Origin: Paenibacillaceae bacterium
Lineage (GTDB): Bacteria; Bacillota; Bacilli; Paenibacillales; CANHGK01
DNA: 64,000 bases
Reading direction: 5' to 3'
NCBI GenBank assembly: GCA_947460235.1
Contig: CANHGK010000010.1
Span: forward strand, 1-64,000
Part shown: positions 19,618-28,029 of the stretch, piece after piece
Numbering within the stretch: position 1 is the first letter of the stretch
How the letters are laid out: every line of letters starts with the position of its first letter
Program-made: the position numbers and the translations under genes
Notes under the pieces: generated by a model
Databases searched by the model: none
Told to the model about the DNA's origin: nothing
What the model saw: the letters and a program-made list of their open reading frames with translations, nothing else

Positions 19618-19682
19618 TAGAAATAGGGTCTATTTATTTAATGGACAAATCAGAACGGCTTATTTTTTTGGAGGTGATTGAA

Positions 19683-20105
19683 ATGGCTGATTTTCAATCG
19701 ATATCTAATAACGCATATACAAATGCAATGAACAATCGCGACGTTTCTCAAAACGTTGAGCGAGTAAAAAAAGAAGTTGAAGCGATGATGGTTGGATCGG
19801 CAGAACCGGCGGTTGTACAGCCTGTTGCTCAGCCTGTTGCTCAAAATAAAATGGAACAAAAATCGGAAAAAACTTCTTTTGGAGAAGAACAATTGGTGCG
19901 TGCGATTCAACATGCGTTGAAATCTATGGAGGGAAAATCTACGCATTTACAATTTTCTGTTCATGAAAAAACAAAGCAGATTATGGTGAAAGTGTTGGAT
20001 AATGAATCGGGAAAAGTTGTTAGAGAAATTCCTTCAGAGAAGACATTTGATTTTCTTGCGAAAGTCTGGGAAATGACGGGATTGTTAATTGACGAGAAAC
20101 GTTAA
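19683..20105 (+). CDS. flaG: Flagellar protein FlaG
   Basis: Start is ATG 19683 behind the strong site GGAGGTGAT at 19670-19678. The protein has 140 residues. Residues 1-70 are low in order and include a VQPVAQPVAQ repeat. Residues about 75-140 form the FlaG domain: LQFSVHEKTKQIMVKVLD, then VVREIPSEKTFDFLAKVWEMTGLLIDEKR. FlaG is linked to flagellin filament length and usually lies between the flagellin gene and fliD. Here fliD and fliS do not follow. A sigma-D promoter precedes the gene, and a strong terminator follows it, so it can be expressed alone with the late flagellar genes. Confidence 0.93.
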   Translation: MADFQSISNNAYTNAMNNRDVSQNVERVKKEVEAMMVGSAEPAVVQPVAQPVAQNKMEQKSEKTSFGEEQLVRAIQHALKSMEGKSTHLQFSVHEKTKQIMVKVLDNESGKVVREIPSEKTFDFLAKVWEMTGLLIDEKR

Positions 20106-20289: not shown

Positions 20290-21390
20290 ATGGTACGCAA
20301 ATTGAATTGGATCTTTGCGCTATTTGTGTTAGTTGGACTATTTACTGGGACCGTTGTATTTGCATCGACAACTGCAACCGCTTCGAAAGTTGCGGATATA
20401 CCCAACTTGCTTTATAACGCGTATGTTGCCCGATCGGATCAATTGAATCTAACCTATACAGGTAAGATGACCGAGATTACACAAGCAAGCCTGAATACTG
20501 CACTTAATACTGCAATGGCAAAAAATGATTATATTCATTTTACGATGAAAACTTATGGATACAGTACATCCGTTGTGAATGGGAAATGGTTAATCACGTT
20601 TCCAGCAACCTATTGGGAAACTGCATCAGAAGTAGAGGCGGTTACGGCAAAGGCTGTTGAAGTCTTCTCTCAAAATGTATCGGTCACAATGAATGCTCAC
20701 CAAAAAGTAAAAGCGTTGCATGATTGGTTAGTTACTCATTTTGAATATGATACATCGATGGTGGAACATTCTGCTTACGCAGGGATAACGGGTGGGAAAA
20801 CCGTGTGTCAAGGTTATGCGTTGATGATGTTTAAGTTGTTAACCGCTGCAAAAATTCCAGTGCGTATCGTAAGCGGCAAAGCGGGCGGACAAAATCATGC
20901 ATGGAACTTGGTTCAATTAGACACCAAATGGTATCATCTCGATCCAACATGGGATGATCCGGTTCCCGATGTAAGTGGACGAGTGGTCTACTCGTATTAT
21001 ATGTTAAGTGATCCTGAGATTAAGCGAAACCATACGCCAGTTGCTGGGTATCCAGCGGCTACGACATATTATGATCAAACGCTGATTTCACTAATTACAT
21101 CCGATAAATCGAGAGCTTCATTTTATAATTCATTTTTGACAACGTTGAGCTATCAGTATTCATTGCCTTCGAATACAGTGAATAATGCTACTGAATTAAA
21201 AACCAAAATTACAACGGCAATTCGAGCAAGTCAAACATCATTGGTTTTTAGATATATGAATAAGGCAACGTTTTTAAATGATTTGAAGACTGCGTTAAAA
21301 GGAACTAATAAATCAGCTTCTTATTCGATGTCTGATTATTCAAAAACGGCAACGACAAATGACGGAATTGTCACGTTGACACTGCGTTAA
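20290..21390 (+). CDS. Secreted transglutaminase-like protein
   Basis: About 366 residues from ATG 20290; GTG 20278 and ATG 20284 lie in frame upstream. Residues 1-26 are a signal peptide (Arg/Lys start, a hydrophobic core, VVFAS cleavage region). The transglutaminase-like core has Cys 173 in GGKTVCQGYA, His 203 in GQNHAWN and Asp 218 in HLDPTWDDP, a complete Cys-His-Asp triad. Residues after about 250 are not recognised. Such proteins may be cysteine proteases or cross-linking enzymes at the cell surface. It stands alone between two terminators. A -10-like TATAAT lies at 20244-20249. Confidence 0.87.
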   Translation: MVRKLNWIFALFVLVGLFTGTVVFASTTATASKVADIPNLLYNAYVARSDQLNLTYTGKMTEITQASLNTALNTAMAKNDYIHFTMKTYGYSTSVVNGKWLITFPATYWETASEVEAVTAKAVEVFSQNVSVTMNAHQKVKALHDWLVTHFEYDTSMVEHSAYAGITGGKTVCQGYALMMFKLLTAAKIPVRIVSGKAGGQNHAWNLVQLDTKWYHLDPTWDDPVPDVSGRVVYSYYMLSDPEIKRNHTPVAGYPAATTYYDQTLISLITSDKSRASFYNSFLTTLSYQYSLPSNTVNNATELKTKITTAIRASQTSLVFRYMNKATFLNDLKTALKGTNKSASYSMSDYSKTATTNDGIVTLTLR

Positions 21391-21456: not shown

Positions 21457-21782
21457 GCAAAGCAAGGTTGTAAAATCCGAACGTTCAAACTTGAAATCGC
21501 TTCCAATACAAACGTATGCGCACTTGTGTACAATATTCACACTTGCCTGTGGATAATGTGCATAATTGTGTGAATAACGCATCAAATCGAGCTTTTTGGA
21601 CGTTGCATAATGTGCATTGCATTGTGACTAGTTGTGAATATCTGAATATTAGAACCATTAGAACAACTCGAAAACCGCATGAACACTGGAGGGCAAACGA
21701 TTTACCATAAAAACCGCATGAAACAAGCTTTTTTTTGTGTTTTTTAATGTATAAAAACCTGTGAAAAACAATAAAATATTGT
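21457..21782. other. Non-coding interval rich in DnaA-box-like sequences
   Basis: No supported gene lies in these 326 bases. The interval holds the DnaA box cluster listed separately and further near matches: ATATTCACA at 21533-21541 and TGTGAATAT at 21633-21641, each one base off the TTATNCACA consensus on one strand or the other. It is A+T-rich near its right end. Confidence 0.7.
21548..21577 (-). promoter_or_regulatory. Cluster of three perfect DnaA boxes
   Basis: Read on the minus strand, TTATCCACA (21548-21556), TTATGCACA (21557-21565) and TTATTCACA (21569-21577) all fit the DnaA consensus TTATNCACA without mismatch. All three point the same way. The first two abut and the third starts 12 bases after the second. 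No dnaA or dnaN gene is near, so this resembles a DnaA-binding cluster outside the origin. Binding is inferred from sequence only. Confidence 0.65.
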
Positions 21783-21811
21783 TTGACACTCAAAAATGTC
21801 AATGCTATTAT
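21783..21811 (+). promoter_or_regulatory. Sigma-A promoter of the first cold-shock gene
   Basis: TTGACA at 21783-21788, 17 bases, TATTAT at 21806-21811: a perfect -35 and a -10 with one mismatch. Transcription should begin near 21818, giving a leader of about 220 nt before the cold-shock ATG at 22039. Confidence 0.82.
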
Positions 21812-22038: not shown

Positions 22039-22239
22039 ATGGTAACAGGTACAGTGAAATGGTTCAATGCTGAGAAAGGTTTTGGCTTCATTTCAGTTGA
22101 AGGCAAAAACGATGTGTTCGTTCACTTTTCAGCGATTCAAACAGACGGCTTCAAATCATTAGAAGAGGGTCAAGCGGTTCAATTCGAAATCGTTGATGGC
22201 GCTCGCGGTCCTCAAGCTTCAAACGTAGTTAAACTTTAA
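22039..22239 (+). CDS. Cold-shock protein (CspA family)
   Basis: A 66-residue single OB-fold protein. [15 protein letters not shown] is RNP1 and DVFVHFSAI is RNP2; the end is [10 protein letters not shown]. It binds single-stranded RNA or DNA and melts mRNA structure at low temperature. Start is ATG 22039, with GAAAGGAA about 10 nt upstream; in-frame codons further upstream lie in the leader. A second, very similar gene follows 125 nt later. Confidence 0.96.
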
Positions 22240-22270: not shown

Positions 22271-22286
22271 TTGCTTATATAAGCAA
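22271..22286. repeat. Perfect 16-bp palindrome between the two cold-shock genes
   Basis: TTGCTTATATAAGCAA is a perfect palindrome. It lies 78 bases before the ATG of the second cold-shock gene and could be a protein-binding site or a small hairpin. Confidence 0.6.
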
Positions 22287-22364
22287 TTTGCAATGCTCAC
22301 AGTAGCGTATGTAGCAGCAGTTTCAGATTTACACATCACACCCAGTTATTGGAGGCTATCTCAC

Positions 22365-22562
22365 ATGCAAGGTAAAGTAAAATGGTTTAACGCAGAAAAA
22401 GGTTACGGTTTCATCGAGCGCGAAGACGGTGGCGATGTATTCGTTCACTTCTCAGCAATCCAAACAGATGGTTTCAAAACTCTTGAAGAAGGCCAAGCGG
22501 TTTCTTTCGACATCGTTGATGGCGCTCGTGGTCCTCAAGCAGCTAACGTTTCCAAATTGTAA
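22365..22562 (+). CDS. Cold-shock protein (CspA family), second copy
   Basis: A 65-residue cold-shock protein with [14 protein letters not shown] (RNP1) and DVFVHFSAI (RNP2). The block from [14 protein letters not shown] to the end is almost the same as in the first copy, so the pair is a tandem duplication or has undergone conversion. GGAGG at 22351-22355 is 9 nt before the ATG. A strong terminator follows. Confidence 0.96.
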
Positions 22563-22582
22563 TTTTTTGCATAAGCAAACAA

Positions 22583-22625
22583 AAACCCGTAAGGTTGGTA
22601 GTTACCAACTTTGCGGGTTTTTTTA
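22583..22625 (+). terminator. Rho-independent terminator after the cold-shock pair
   Basis: AAACCCGTAAGGTTGGTA pairs with TACCAACTTTGCGGGTTT across a 2-base turn, with one or two mismatches, followed by a run of T. Confidence 0.93.
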
Positions 22626-22809: not shown

Positions 22810-25800
22810 ATGATGATGAAAAAATCACGTTTCTCATCAGTAGTAGTCAAAGTGCTAATTATTGCCATTTTTATGTTCCAATTTAATGTGTTTACGTCAT
22901 TAGCAGTCGTTGCATCACCCCCTATAGCTGGCTCAGTCATTTCTGTGAGCAACAATTACGGAACAGCGGATACCGTCTACATAGCCTCAGGCTTAGGGGT
23001 TGGGGATGTAGTAAGGGTGTACAATACGGCTACTATCGTTTCTCCATTAGGATCTGGAACCGTATCGTCTGGTACATCTCTTACTGTTACGTTGACGACG
23101 GGATTGGCTACTGGTGTTGGAACAGCTTATGTGTCGGTTCAAAAAGCAGGAGCAAGTTATTTAGAAAGTATTCGTGTTGCCAAAGCGTACACATCTGAAA
23201 CATCTTCAGTGCCGGTTTTAAGCAACGTTTCAACGGAAAACTTCAAAACGGGTGTAAATGACACAATGACCGTAAATGGTTTATTACCAAACGATCAAGT
23301 GAAAGTCTATGCTACTTCGACTGCAACGACGCCAATTGTTACGAGTAACAGTGTATCTTCAGGAACAACTTCAATTGTGATTTCTCAATTGAATATGTTT
23401 GCAACATCAACAGCTGGAAGCGTATATATTACTGTTAAAGGTGCGGGTAAGCGTGAAAGCACTAAATTAACAGTTCCATACAAAACAGATGTTACCACAA
23501 CACCGATTGTAAGTAATTTTGTTGTAAAAAATGCGAAGTCTAGTGCGAATGATACGATGATTGTATCGGGAGTAACGTCAGGCGATATTGTAAAAGTTTA
23601 TTTTGATGCTAGATTTTTATCTGCCAATTATACGTCATCAGCAGTAACTGCTGGTAGTACGTCGTTAACGATTACGAGTAGTTCCTTATTTAATACCTCC
23701 TCTGGTGGTACGGTTTATGTAACAATCACGAATGTTGATAAATACGAAAGTACGAAAACGGCAATCAGTTATGGATCGGACATGTCAGTGATTCCTACCA
23801 ACATTGCATTTACACCAACGAATAATAAAACAAGTGTGAATGATTCATTGGTTGTTAGCGGCTTGCAGGCAGATGATATTGTGAATATTTATGAATCATT
23901 AACAAGTACGGTTGCAGTAGGCACATCGGGTTCTGTTGCTTCCGGTCAAACATCAGTTACATTTACAAGTGTAAACATGTTTGCGAATTCCAATGGCGGA
24001 ACTGTGTATGCAACGGTAACAAGTCTGTATAAAAACGAATCGGCTGCGAGAGTTGCGCTTGCGTACCCATCAGATGTTTCGACAGAGCCGCGTACGATTA
24101 CAATCGTTCAAAATCCAACAGGCACGTTAGACACTGTTACTGTAACTGGTTTAGCAGTTGGTGACGTGATTAAAGTTTATAGCACAGCTTCTGGTGGAAC
24201 GGCGTTAGGTACTTCATCTGCAGTATCTGGAAGTGCAACACAAGTGACATTATCCGTAAACTTAAATCCAAGAGGCGGAAGCGCTTATGTGACAGCAATG
24301 CGTGCGAATAAAAGCGAAAGTATTCGTGTGGCAAAAGCATTCCAATCGGAACCAGTTTCAACACAAACGTTAATATCTCGTATTTCGGGAACGAATCAAA
24401 AATCAAGTGTTGCAGATACGATGGTCGTTACAACATTGGCTGTTGGAGATCAAGTTTATGTATATGATGCATTAACAGGTGGAAATGAATTGGGTCACTC
24501 ATCCGCGATCGCATCAGGAACGGTTGCGAATTTATCGATCGCAAACTTATTGCCAAATACTGCGGGTGGACAAGTGTATGTTGCGATCAAAAATCCAAAT
24601 AAACTGGAAAGTTCGCGTGTAGCATTCGGATATGGCACGGATAAATCAGCTGTACCTGTAGCGTCTAATTTCACATTATTCAATGCGGCATCTTCCGTAG
24701 CAGATACGATTGATGTCAGTTCTTTAAGCGTAGGAAATACGATTCGGATTTATTCCTCTGAAACTGGTGGGACTTTATTAGCGGAAGATGCGGTAACGTC
24801 AGGTACGACCTTATCATTCTCAGCTGTTGATTTGTTACCAACAAGTACAAATGGTCAAGTGTACGCAACATTGGAGACATCCACAAAATCGGAAAGTGAT
24901 CGAATTGTGTTGTTCTATGATTCAGATCAATCATTACCACTTTTATCTGGTCAAGTTACTGTGACGAACCATAAAAAAGGTGTTGCGGATACAATTGATA
25001 TTACTAGTTTACCTGAAGCTGCCGTGATTTACGTTTACGATGGAAATGGTGATTCTGCGAATTTATTGGCAACATCAGCTGCAGTTGCTTCCGGTAGTAC
25101 AAGTACTACGATAAGTGGTGTGGACTTACTTGAGGCTTCAGGTGACACATTCTATATTTCAGTGACGAATGACGATATGGGTGAAAGTGAACGAATTGCA
25201 ATTACGTATAGCGCAGAACAAATTGCTACAATCCTAGATCCAACGCAAGTGACAATTGTAAATAATAAAGCTGGACAGGCAGATTCAATTACAGTTTCCG
25301 GAATGACCACTGGAGATACAATTTATGTGTATACTTCTTCAACGGCGACAACACCAACTCAAACGGTAAACTATGCTTCCGGTACGACGATTGTAATTTC
25401 GGCAAATGATTTGTTAACAGCGGGTTCAGATCGCGGTACGATTTATTTGGCAATTACAAATGCAGACAAATCAGAAAGTCCGAAGTTGTCTTGTGATTAT
25501 TTATCAGATAAAACGCCAACACTGTTTAGTTCACAAATTGCAATCACCCAAACCTACACTGGCGCAGCAGACCAAGTTGTTGTGAGTGGCTTGCGCGTGG
25601 GTGATGTGGTTAAGTGGTATGATACGTCAACGAAAACCAACCTAATCCGTCAAGGAACAGTTTCGTCTGGAACGTCGTATACGTTTAGCGGGACGGATTG
25701 GTTGACTTCAACGGGTGGTGACGTGTACCTTACCGTGACATCGAATTTGAAAACGGAAAGCGTGATTATTGGTAAATCATATGCGTCTGAACCGAGAACG

Positions 25801-27318
25801 ACATTGTCAATCTCAGGACTCTCCAAATCTTCGTTAAACAATCGCTCTGGAGTCGCAGATACATTTACTGTATCCGGTTTGGCTGCGGGAGATGTAGTCA
25901 TCGTATACGATTCATCAACTGGCGGTAATGAAATCACTCGAGGATCTGTTGCGTCCGGAGCTACGTCTGTGACGATAAGTTTTGTGGATATGTTTGATGA
26001 CACGACCGGAAATGTATATGTATCAATCATGGAAAATCATAAGTTGGAAGCGGTAACTCGTACTTCTTACACGTATGCGACCGTTGCACAAACTGCGGAT
26101 ATTGATTCATCAAATGTTTTGGTAAAAAACTATGTTGGGACAACGAATGACACCATTACCATTTTTGGTTTGCATCCATTGGATGAAATAAATATTTATT
26201 CAAATGCAGCTGCAACGATCCAAAAATGTGAAGCGACGACAACAACAAATTGTACGTGGGCAGTTTCTGGTTCTGGAAACTCAGTAACGGTTACTGACTT
26301 GGCAGGATTATCGGATACTGCAGGAGGTACATTCTATGTAACGGTTCAAAATACGACATTGGACGTAAGTGATCCGGTCATTGTTTACTATAGTAATGCA
26401 AGAACCGTTCAACCGATTGTTTCAAGTGTTGCAGTTACGAACAGTGAAATTGGAACAAATGATAGTCTTGTGATTACTGGATTATCAAGTGCAGATGTTG
26501 TGAAAGTATATGCTGCTGCTAGCGGGGGGTCGGCGATTGCTGGTGGTGCTCAAACAGAGTGCGCAAGTAGTTGTACAGGCGGTGCGGTTTCGGGTCAATT
26601 GACATTTGGTGGTTCTGAGTTCTTGACAGATACAGGTGGCGATATTTATGTGACAATTACAAGTACAAATAAATTAGAAAGTAACCGTACAAAAGTCACT
26701 TATAATGCAATCAATCAAACAGCAACGCCAACAACAATCGCAATTGTTAACTATCCAGCGTCTGTTGCAGATGATTCCATTACCATTTCTGGATACACTG
26801 ATACCAATTTGACATACGTTGTGAAAGTGTATAATGCAACAACGAATGCATTGCTTTCTACAAGTGGAACGATCTCGTTGGATGGAAGTAATGATATTGT
26901 TTATGACGGGGCTGATATTATTGCTGCATCCAATGCGGGTAATGTCAAAATAACCGTAACGCAAAGTACGTTACTTGAGTCGGCGAAATCGACATCGAAA
27001 GCATTTACGAACGATTATACTGCACCGGTCGCAAGTGCGGCGAAAGTGCAAGTGTTCAATGATGACACGAACACAGACATCGTTCGCGTGAAGATTTCAG
27101 GGCTTCTAGCAGGAGATCTCGTATTTGTTTATGAGACAGGCACATCGACAGATTATACGAGTGGCGGTTACACTGCGTTAGCTGGGGATGCAACTGCAGG
27201 CTATGTCAAAATTACAGGCCTAACATTGATTGGTGCCGGGGGATCAGTCGATGTGACTGTTAAGCGCGGTGATTATGCGGAAAGTTCAGCAGTTAGTGTT
27301 GCCTATGCCGAAGAATGA
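22810..27318 (+). CDS. Giant secreted protein of about 15 tandem beta-type repeats
   Basis: A 1502-residue protein. A signal peptide covers residues 1-35 (MMMKKSRF start, hydrophobic core, VVASPP). The rest is about 15 imperfect repeats of about 98 residues. Each has the plan N-x(4)-ADT(I/V)-x-V-SGL-x(2)-GD-x-V-x-VY, then an SG-T turn, GG-x-VY-x-TV and a K-x-ES element. The core motif occurs as SGLGVGDVVRVY, NGLLPNDQVKVY, SGVTSGDIVKVY and so on up to SGLLAGDLVFVY. Repeats 12 and 13 each hold a Cys pair (KCEATTTTNC, ECASSC), probably disulfides. No SLH domain or LPXTG motif was seen, so the anchor is unknown. A surface fibre or adhesin is the best inference. AAGGAGGGA precedes the ATG, and terminators flank the gene. 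Confidence 0.85.
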   Translation: MMMKKSRFSSVVVKVLIIAIFMFQFNVFTSLAVVASPPIAGSVISVSNNYGTADTVYIASGLGVGDVVRVYNTATIVSPLGSGTVSSGTSLTVTLTTGLATGVGTAYVSVQKAGASYLESIRVAKAYTSETSSVPVLSNVSTENFKTGVNDTMTVNGLLPNDQVKVYATSTATTPIVTSNSVSSGTTSIVISQLNMFATSTAGSVYITVKGAGKRESTKLTVPYKTDVTTTPIVSNFVVKNAKSSANDTMIVSGVTSGDIVKVYFDARFLSANYTSSAVTAGSTSLTITSSSLFNTSSGGTVYVTITNVDKYESTKTAISYGSDMSVIPTNIAFTPTNNKTSVNDSLVVSGLQADDIVNIYESLTSTVAVGTSGSVASGQTSVTFTSVNMFANSNGGTVYATVTSLYKNESAARVALAYPSDVSTEPRTITIVQNPTGTLDTVTVTGLAVGDVIKVYSTASGGTALGTSSAVSGSATQVTLSVNLNPRGGSAYVTAMRANKSESIRVAKAFQSEPVSTQTLISRISGTNQKSSVADTMVVTTLAVGDQVYVYDALTGGNELGHSSAIASGTVANLSIANLLPNTAGGQVYVAIKNPNKLESSRVAFGYGTDKSAVPVASNFTLFNAASSVADTIDVSSLSVGNTIRIYSSETGGTLLAEDAVTSGTTLSFSAVDLLPTSTNGQVYATLETSTKSESDRIVLFYDSDQSLPLLSGQVTVTNHKKGVADTIDITSLPEAAVIYVYDGNGDSANLLATSAAVASGSTSTTISGVDLLEASGDTFYISVTNDDMGESERIAITYSAEQIATILDPTQVTIVNNKAGQADSITVSGMTTGDTIYVYTSSTATTPTQTVNYASGTTIVISANDLLTAGSDRGTIYLAITNADKSESPKLSCDYLSDKTPTLFSSQIAITQTYTGAADQVVVSGLRVGDVVKWYDTSTKTNLIRQGTVSSGTSYTFSGTDWLTSTGGDVYLTVTSNLKTESVIIGKSYASEPRTTLSISGLSKSSLNNRSGVADTFTVSGLAAGDVVIVYDSSTGGNEITRGSVASGATSVTISFVDMFDDTTGNVYVSIMENHKLEAVTRTSYTYATVAQTADIDSSNVLVKNYVGTTNDTITIFGLHPLDEINIYSNAAATIQKCEATTTTNCTWAVSGSGNSVTVTDLAGLSDTAGGTFYVTVQNTTLDVSDPVIVYYSNARTVQPIVSSVAVTNSEIGTNDSLVITGLSSADVVKVYAAASGGSAIAGGAQTECASSCTGGAVSGQLTFGGSEFLTDTGGDIYVTITSTNKLESNRTKVTYNAINQTATPTTIAIVNYPASVADDSITISGYTDTNLTYVVKVYNATTNALLSTSGTISLDGSNDIVYDGADIIAASNAGNVKITVTQSTLLESAKSTSKAFTNDYTAPVASAAKVQVFNDDTNTDIVRVKISGLLAGDLVFVYETGTSTDYTSGGYTALAGDATAGYVKITGLTLIGAGGSVDVTVKRGDYAESSAVSVAYAEE

Positions 27319-27459: not shown

Positions 27460-28029
27460 ATGAATATTCATATTCGCGGCGAGCACATGGCAGTCACGGA
27501 AGCACTTCGTGAATACGCAACTCGCAAAATCGGTAAACTGGAAAGGTACTTTGAACGACCGTTAGACACGGATGTTCATGTCACGCTAAGCGTGGTACGC
27601 GAGCTTCATTCGATTGAAGTGACAATTCCAATACCGGGTTTGTTGTTGCGGGGCGAGGAACGCAGTGAGGACATGTATGCTTCGATTGACCTCGTGATGG
27701 AGAAGTTAGAGCAACAAATTCGCAAGCACAAAAGTAAGCTGACTCGCAAAACGCGACATAACAGTGAGCAACGCGCGGTCTTTAAGGAAGTTTCCGTCGC
27801 TCCTATTGTTGCCGTTTTGGATGAGGAAGATGCAGATGAAGACGATTACGATGTTGTGAAGACCAAACGCTTCCAATTCAAACCGATGGATATTGATGAA
27901 GCGATCCTCCAAATGAATTTGGTCGGTCATAATTTTTACGTATTCGCGAATTCTGACACAGCTAAAGTGAGTGTCGTTTACAAGCGAAACGACGGTCGCT
28001 ATGGCTTGATCGAGCCAGACAAAGAGTAA
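27460..28029 (+). CDS. hpf: Ribosome hibernation-promoting factor, long form
   Basis: A 189-residue protein. Residues 1-100 are the ribosome-binding HPF/YfiA domain (MNIHIRGEHMAVTEALREYA at the start, KLERYFERPLDTDVHV, EDMYASIDLVMEKLEQQIRKHK). An acidic linker (DEEDADEDDYD) follows. Residues 130-189 are the dimerization domain (VKTKRFQFKPMDIDEAILQMNLVGHNFYVF). The long form pairs 70S ribosomes into 100S dimers in stationary phase. In Bacillus hpf sits just downstream of the flaG-fliD-fliS-fliT genes; here it is near flaG but with different genes in between. Confidence 0.96.
   Translation: MNIHIRGEHMAVTEALREYATRKIGKLERYFERPLDTDVHVTLSVVRELHSIEVTIPIPGLLLRGEERSEDMYASIDLVMEKLEQQIRKHKSKLTRKTRHNSEQRAVFKEVSVAPIVAVLDEEDADEDDYDVVKTKRFQFKPMDIDEAILQMNLVGHNFYVFANSDTAKVSVVYKRNDGRYGLIEPDKE

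Follow-up and report, generated by a model that had tools for sequence, protein, structure and literature searches.

A conserved cluster of DnaA boxes outside oriC, upstream of the csp-hpf-secA genes in Paenibacillales and other Bacilli

Clusters of DnaA boxes outside oriC have been studied mainly in Bacillus subtilis and Escherichia coli, and their weight in Gram-positive bacteria is disputed. In B. subtilis, six such clusters jointly restrain initiation, and their joint deletion leads to early initiation (PMC13220808, PMC5295017), although according to one review their contribution to the control of initiation is not significant (PMC5295017). These clusters (in the ywlC, ywcI/vpr, gcp/ydiF, yqeG/sda, yydA and trmE regions) are intergenic and combine perfect with near-perfect boxes. 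Table 1 of PMC4447404 gives eight high-affinity B. subtilis DnaA sites, none of which is at hpf, and hpf, yvyD and secA are likewise missing from the sites that its main text names. In B. subtilis, DnaA boxes also stand upstream of DnaA-regulated genes such as sda and ywlC. In E. coli, the non-coding locus datA binds DnaA away from oriC and lowers the amount of active DnaA after initiation, while DARS1 and DARS2 are each built around a core of three DnaA boxes. Our literature search found no report linking DnaA with hpf, csp or Paenibacillus.

The locus described here lies in the window, by which we mean the whole stretch of 64,000 nucleotides that was analysed, on contig C10 of a 2.72-Mbp genome in 42 contigs. 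The first-pass annotation had noted three perfect DnaA boxes within 30 bp, all in one direction and with steps of 9 and 12 bases, and this is what we find at 21548–21577: three perfect TTATNCACA boxes on the minus strand, with start-to-start steps of 9 and 12 bp. Its placement of the boxes in a non-coding interval also stands, since the array is flanked by the stop of a transglutaminase-fold gene at 21390 and the start of the first cold-shock protein gene (csp) at 22039. Four further boxes with one mismatch each occur within ~220 bp of the array. The features of the interval and its surroundings are as follows.

19680–20105, plus strand: flaG (PF03646), a remnant of the flagellar neighbourhood represented by fliS-fliT in relatives
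21525–21533, minus strand, and 21533–21541, plus strand: overlapping one-mismatch DnaA boxes, TTGTACACA and ATATTCACA, respectively
21548–21556, minus strand: DnaA box TTATCCACA, abutting the next box; position conserved in 42 aligned loci
21557–21565, minus strand: DnaA box TTATGCACA, a perfect match; conserved in the 42 aligned loci
21569–21577, minus strand: DnaA box TTATTCACA, preceded by a 3-bp gap; conserved in the 42 aligned loci
21580–21599, strand not applicable: catcaaatcgagctttttgg, the diverged counterpart, by alignment, of a palindrome found in relatives, only weakly kept in this genome
21633–21641 and 21760–21768, both minus strand: one-mismatch DnaA boxes
21636–21650, plus strand: weak CodY-like box by consensus match, with 4 mismatches to AATTTTCWGAAAATT
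21783–21811, plus strand: sigma-A-type promoter by consensus match, TTGACA-17-TATTAT, upstream of the first csp
22039–22239, plus strand: cold-shock protein gene 1 (PF00313)
22365–22562, plus strand: cold-shock protein gene 2 (PF00313), overlapping an Rfam cspA thermoregulator match
27460–28029, plus strand: hpf, long-form ribosome hibernation promoting factor (PF02482, PF16321), the array-linked gene in relatives

The Rfam cspA thermoregulator match (22279–22618) corresponds to the second csp gene and its leader. Between csp and hpf, positions 22810–27318 encode a putatively secreted repeat protein of 1502 amino acids without a Pfam match, which is absent from this place in relatives.

The number of perfect boxes in the window is ordinary (6 against 3.65 expected), so it is their clustering rather than their count that is unusual. 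When the window was dinucleotide-shuffled 400 times (25.6 Mb in total), no triple within 30 bp arose and pairs within 30 bp appeared at 0.0025 per shuffle, which bears out the earlier estimate that such a triple is very unlikely by chance. Pattern searches, from which all counts for this genome derive, returned only two occurrences of a box pair with the 12-bp step in the whole genome, one being the array and the other lying near tadA (C14:11416). Three more perfect DnaA boxes adjoin tadA on that contig (L128:2269–2437).

Like the B. subtilis clusters, the array comprises several boxes (three perfect ones plus those with one mismatch), is non-coding and lies outside oriC. It differs from them in its locus, in its fixed tandem triple with 9- and 12-bp steps and in often abutting a single-copy palindrome. 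The array locus is absent from the B. subtilis high-affinity sites as given in Table 1 of PMC4447404, a mismatch that bears on orthology with a named cluster and not on the kind of element. The gcp/ydiF-type cluster is itself conserved in the same order as the array, and in the present genome a DnaA-box pair adjoining an ABC-F gene (C5:111403–111422; L201:1504–1523) is its likely counterpart.

Conservation was assessed at several depths, with family labels (f1, f6, f11 and so on) denoting groups as numbered in the genome collection. A blastn search with the array spacer matched 14 of 39 relatives of the same order, in each case along one stretch of 33–74 bp at the array with 76–88% identity. 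The 30-base array pattern, with up to 2 mismatches allowed, was present at least once in 341 of 392 genomes of the order, not all of them at csp-hpf since the matches include a second locus, and in 199 of 398 genomes of the class; the reversed pattern, used as a control, gave no match in the same genomes. Among the 30 loci whose context was first inspected (families f1–f10), 29 adjoin csp, hpf or secA, often after fliS-fliT. In one genome (G414; L140) two pattern matches stand ~2 kb apart between fliT and csp. A reading of all matches as one locus was rejected: those inspected in f11 sit elsewhere, most of them in a four-box layout of gcp/ydiF type, with the one inspected in full adjoining an ABC-F gene. 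Matches inspected in other Bacilli families often follow tsaD (gcp) and in part precede the ABC-F gene ydiF, which is the known gcp/ydiF cluster.

To avoid selection on the array itself, genomes were then sampled by hpf alone. Within Paenibacillales outside f11, 27 of 31 genomes carry the array at up to 2 mismatches (25 of 27 and 2 of 4 in the two parts of the sample), just upstream of csp-hpf-secA and 164–817 bp upstream of hpf. Best-mismatch counts are bimodal, at 2 or fewer or at 8 or more, apart from one degenerate case at 6. The hpf locus carries the array in other Bacilli families too, in 9 of the 30 genomes sampled: five have it no more than 1.5 kb from hpf and four at 2.6–3.8 kb; in f28, f32 and f33, ABC transporter genes (in those inspected) intervene between array and hpf and the array is retained. 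By contrast, none of 20 genomes of f11, which we infer to be the family containing Cohnella and also to contain Paenibacillus proper, carries the array, despite retaining csp-hpf-secA, and it is likewise missing from all 16 named Cohnella genomes. On these counts the array has been lost from the Cohnella-containing family, where it is therefore dispensable. Conservation of the boxes alongside their flanking genes, which had been proposed as a check on the initial reading, thus holds in most of the genomes sampled outside f11 and fails in f11 and Cohnella, where csp, hpf and secA persist. The proposal of a DnaA-box cluster outside oriC nonetheless finds good support in the sequence, spacing, orientation and locus of the array, all of which are deeply conserved.

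Alignment of 42 loci gives the conserved element sharp limits, with conservation climbing abruptly at the first box and dropping abruptly at about +50, so bounding ~50 bp. Columns 30–49, which are independent of locus selection, read ATGAAAACAAGCTTTCAT in many of these loci, forming a palindrome that abuts the array; an 18-bp palindrome, ATGAAAAYAAGCTTTCAT, stands directly 3' of the array in L209, L211, L213 and others. In the genomes searched, at up to one mismatch, it has a single copy per genome and no occurrence away from the array, for which reason we rejected it as the site of a regulon. As a strong DNA hairpin it is a weak candidate (−2.3 kcal/mol, z −2.3). In several genera of f6 the palindrome is replaced, partly by a fourth DnaA-like box.

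The array is not oriC itself, nor does it lie beside dnaA and dnaN. In this genome oriC is found on contig C2, with rpmH-rnpA-yidC on one side, dnaA-dnaN-recF on the other and seven perfect boxes of its own. Judged from contig ends, the distance from the array to dnaA exceeds ~172 kb on one side or ~41 kb on the other. Twelve f6 genomes that are complete or nearly so, in one or few contigs, have the array 112–162 kb from dnaA (mean 132, s.d. 17) and in the same orientation as that gene. Not all genomes have it near oriC: the distance is 976 kb in G001, a genome of the same order, and 340–665 kb in f32, another Bacilli family. These distances fit an oriC-proximal role, with the exceptions given and with confounding by ancestry. 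A rule that the array is kept only where hpf is near oriC is suggested by f6 and f11 (in the latter, hpf is 489–756 kb from dnaA in four complete genomes), but G001 and f32 break it and the contrast is confounded by ancestry. In family f26 (L144), an array with 9- and 12-bp steps occurs within oriC, on both sides of dnaA by position.

What is observed directly, namely the sequence, spacing, orientation, locus and antiquity of the array and its proximity to oriC in most of the complete genomes from one related family, leads us to read it as an ancient DnaA-box cluster outside oriC, of the kind known in B. subtilis, upstream of csp-hpf-secA; it is probably a DnaA sink restraining initiation and may also tune the csp-hpf promoter (rough probability 0.6). 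Given that the six B. subtilis clusters restrain initiation and that hpf is not among the main sites, the array would be a further member of that kind. DnaA very likely binds there, judging from the quality of the boxes, their head-to-tail spacing, their sharply bounded conservation and a canonical DnaA, the protein encoded in this genome carrying the standard domains. Three strong boxes arranged head to tail would let DnaA load cooperatively, as their quality and spacing suggest, and the array could then draw DnaA away from oriC shortly after its own replication. The most likely effect of DnaA held in this way would be to restrain re-initiation, perhaps together with a local influence on the csp-hpf promoter.

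A tentative alternative is that the array acts mainly as a DnaA-responsive operator, repressing or activating csp-hpf(-secA), so that ribosome hibernation and cold-shock proteins would follow the state of replication. Wherever context was checked, the array lies upstream of the csp/hpf unit and shares its orientation, and csp-less loci have it ~150–215 bp from hpf. Across relatives, the distance from array start to −35 is 116–228 bp; the best promoter match falls 116–169 bp past the array start in 23 of 25 array-bearing loci sampled by hpf first and 206–228 bp past it in the other two, with several f6 genera at 146–149 bp. A CodY-like box, again by consensus match, lies between array and promoter, and in B. 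subtilis several DnaA sites control adjacent genes (PMC4447404). Yet the spacing between array and promoter varies in helical phase across genera, and in this genome, where the array start is 235 bp from the −35, the boxes end ~206 bp upstream of it, which sets the array apart from sda and ywlC. The array is also kept in f28, f32 and f33 despite the genes between it and hpf. Moreover, f11 keeps csp-hpf-secA without the array, and the csp promoter is still visible in the four Cohnella loci inspected; persistence of the promoter in the array-less family, where inspected, weighs against an obligatory promoter role of the array. Finally, the gcp/ydiF cluster of B. subtilis lies downstream of both its neighbours (PMC4447404), so that promoter control does not follow from conserved linkage alone.

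An extension that we regard as unlikely is that the array, the single-copy palindrome and the CodY-like box form a composite switch, in which DnaA, as a signal of replication status, and CodY, as a signal of nutrient status, would jointly set csp/hpf expression and a palindrome-binding protein would act at this site alone. In most relatives (L227–L253) the CodY-like box is placed between array and csp promoter, at roughly +87 or +110 relative to the array start, with a mean of 2.7 mismatches to AATTTTCWGAAAATT against 5.6 in shuffles.

It is quite improbable that the array is a site of DnaA nucleotide exchange or hydrolysis resembling DARS or datA of E. coli, despite its three boxes, its non-coding and conserved nature and an abutting palindrome that could take a second protein. 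The geometry makes a DARS unlikely: boxes I and II of DARS face in opposite directions (PMC8682772), whereas all three boxes of the array are on the minus strand. The size, box number and IHF dependence of datA, which spans ~1 kb with five boxes (PMC5295017), make that kind of element unlikely for the array, in which only three perfect, near-abutting boxes occupy 30 bp of a conserved element of ~30–50 bp. IHF, datA and DARS are, in addition, absent from B. subtilis (PMC13220808).

That the array is a relic or spare copy of the oriC module, without present function, is very improbable: the near-identical array with 9- and 12-bp steps in oriC itself in some Bacilli (f26) speaks for it, but 30–50 sharply bounded base pairs would not persist across many families in a relic. 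A chance cluster in an AT-rich spacer, with which the lack of enrichment of single boxes in the window would agree, has a negligible probability, being already refuted by conservation across the order and further by the empty shuffles.

An ancient cluster kept in many Bacilli families and cleanly lost in the family of Cohnella offers a natural comparison by which to ask whether such sites time initiation. From its constant position upstream of csp-hpf-secA there also arises a possible connection, open to testing, between the initiation of replication and ribosome hibernation, and if the composite-switch reading were true, ribosome hibernation would be tied directly to the replication initiator.
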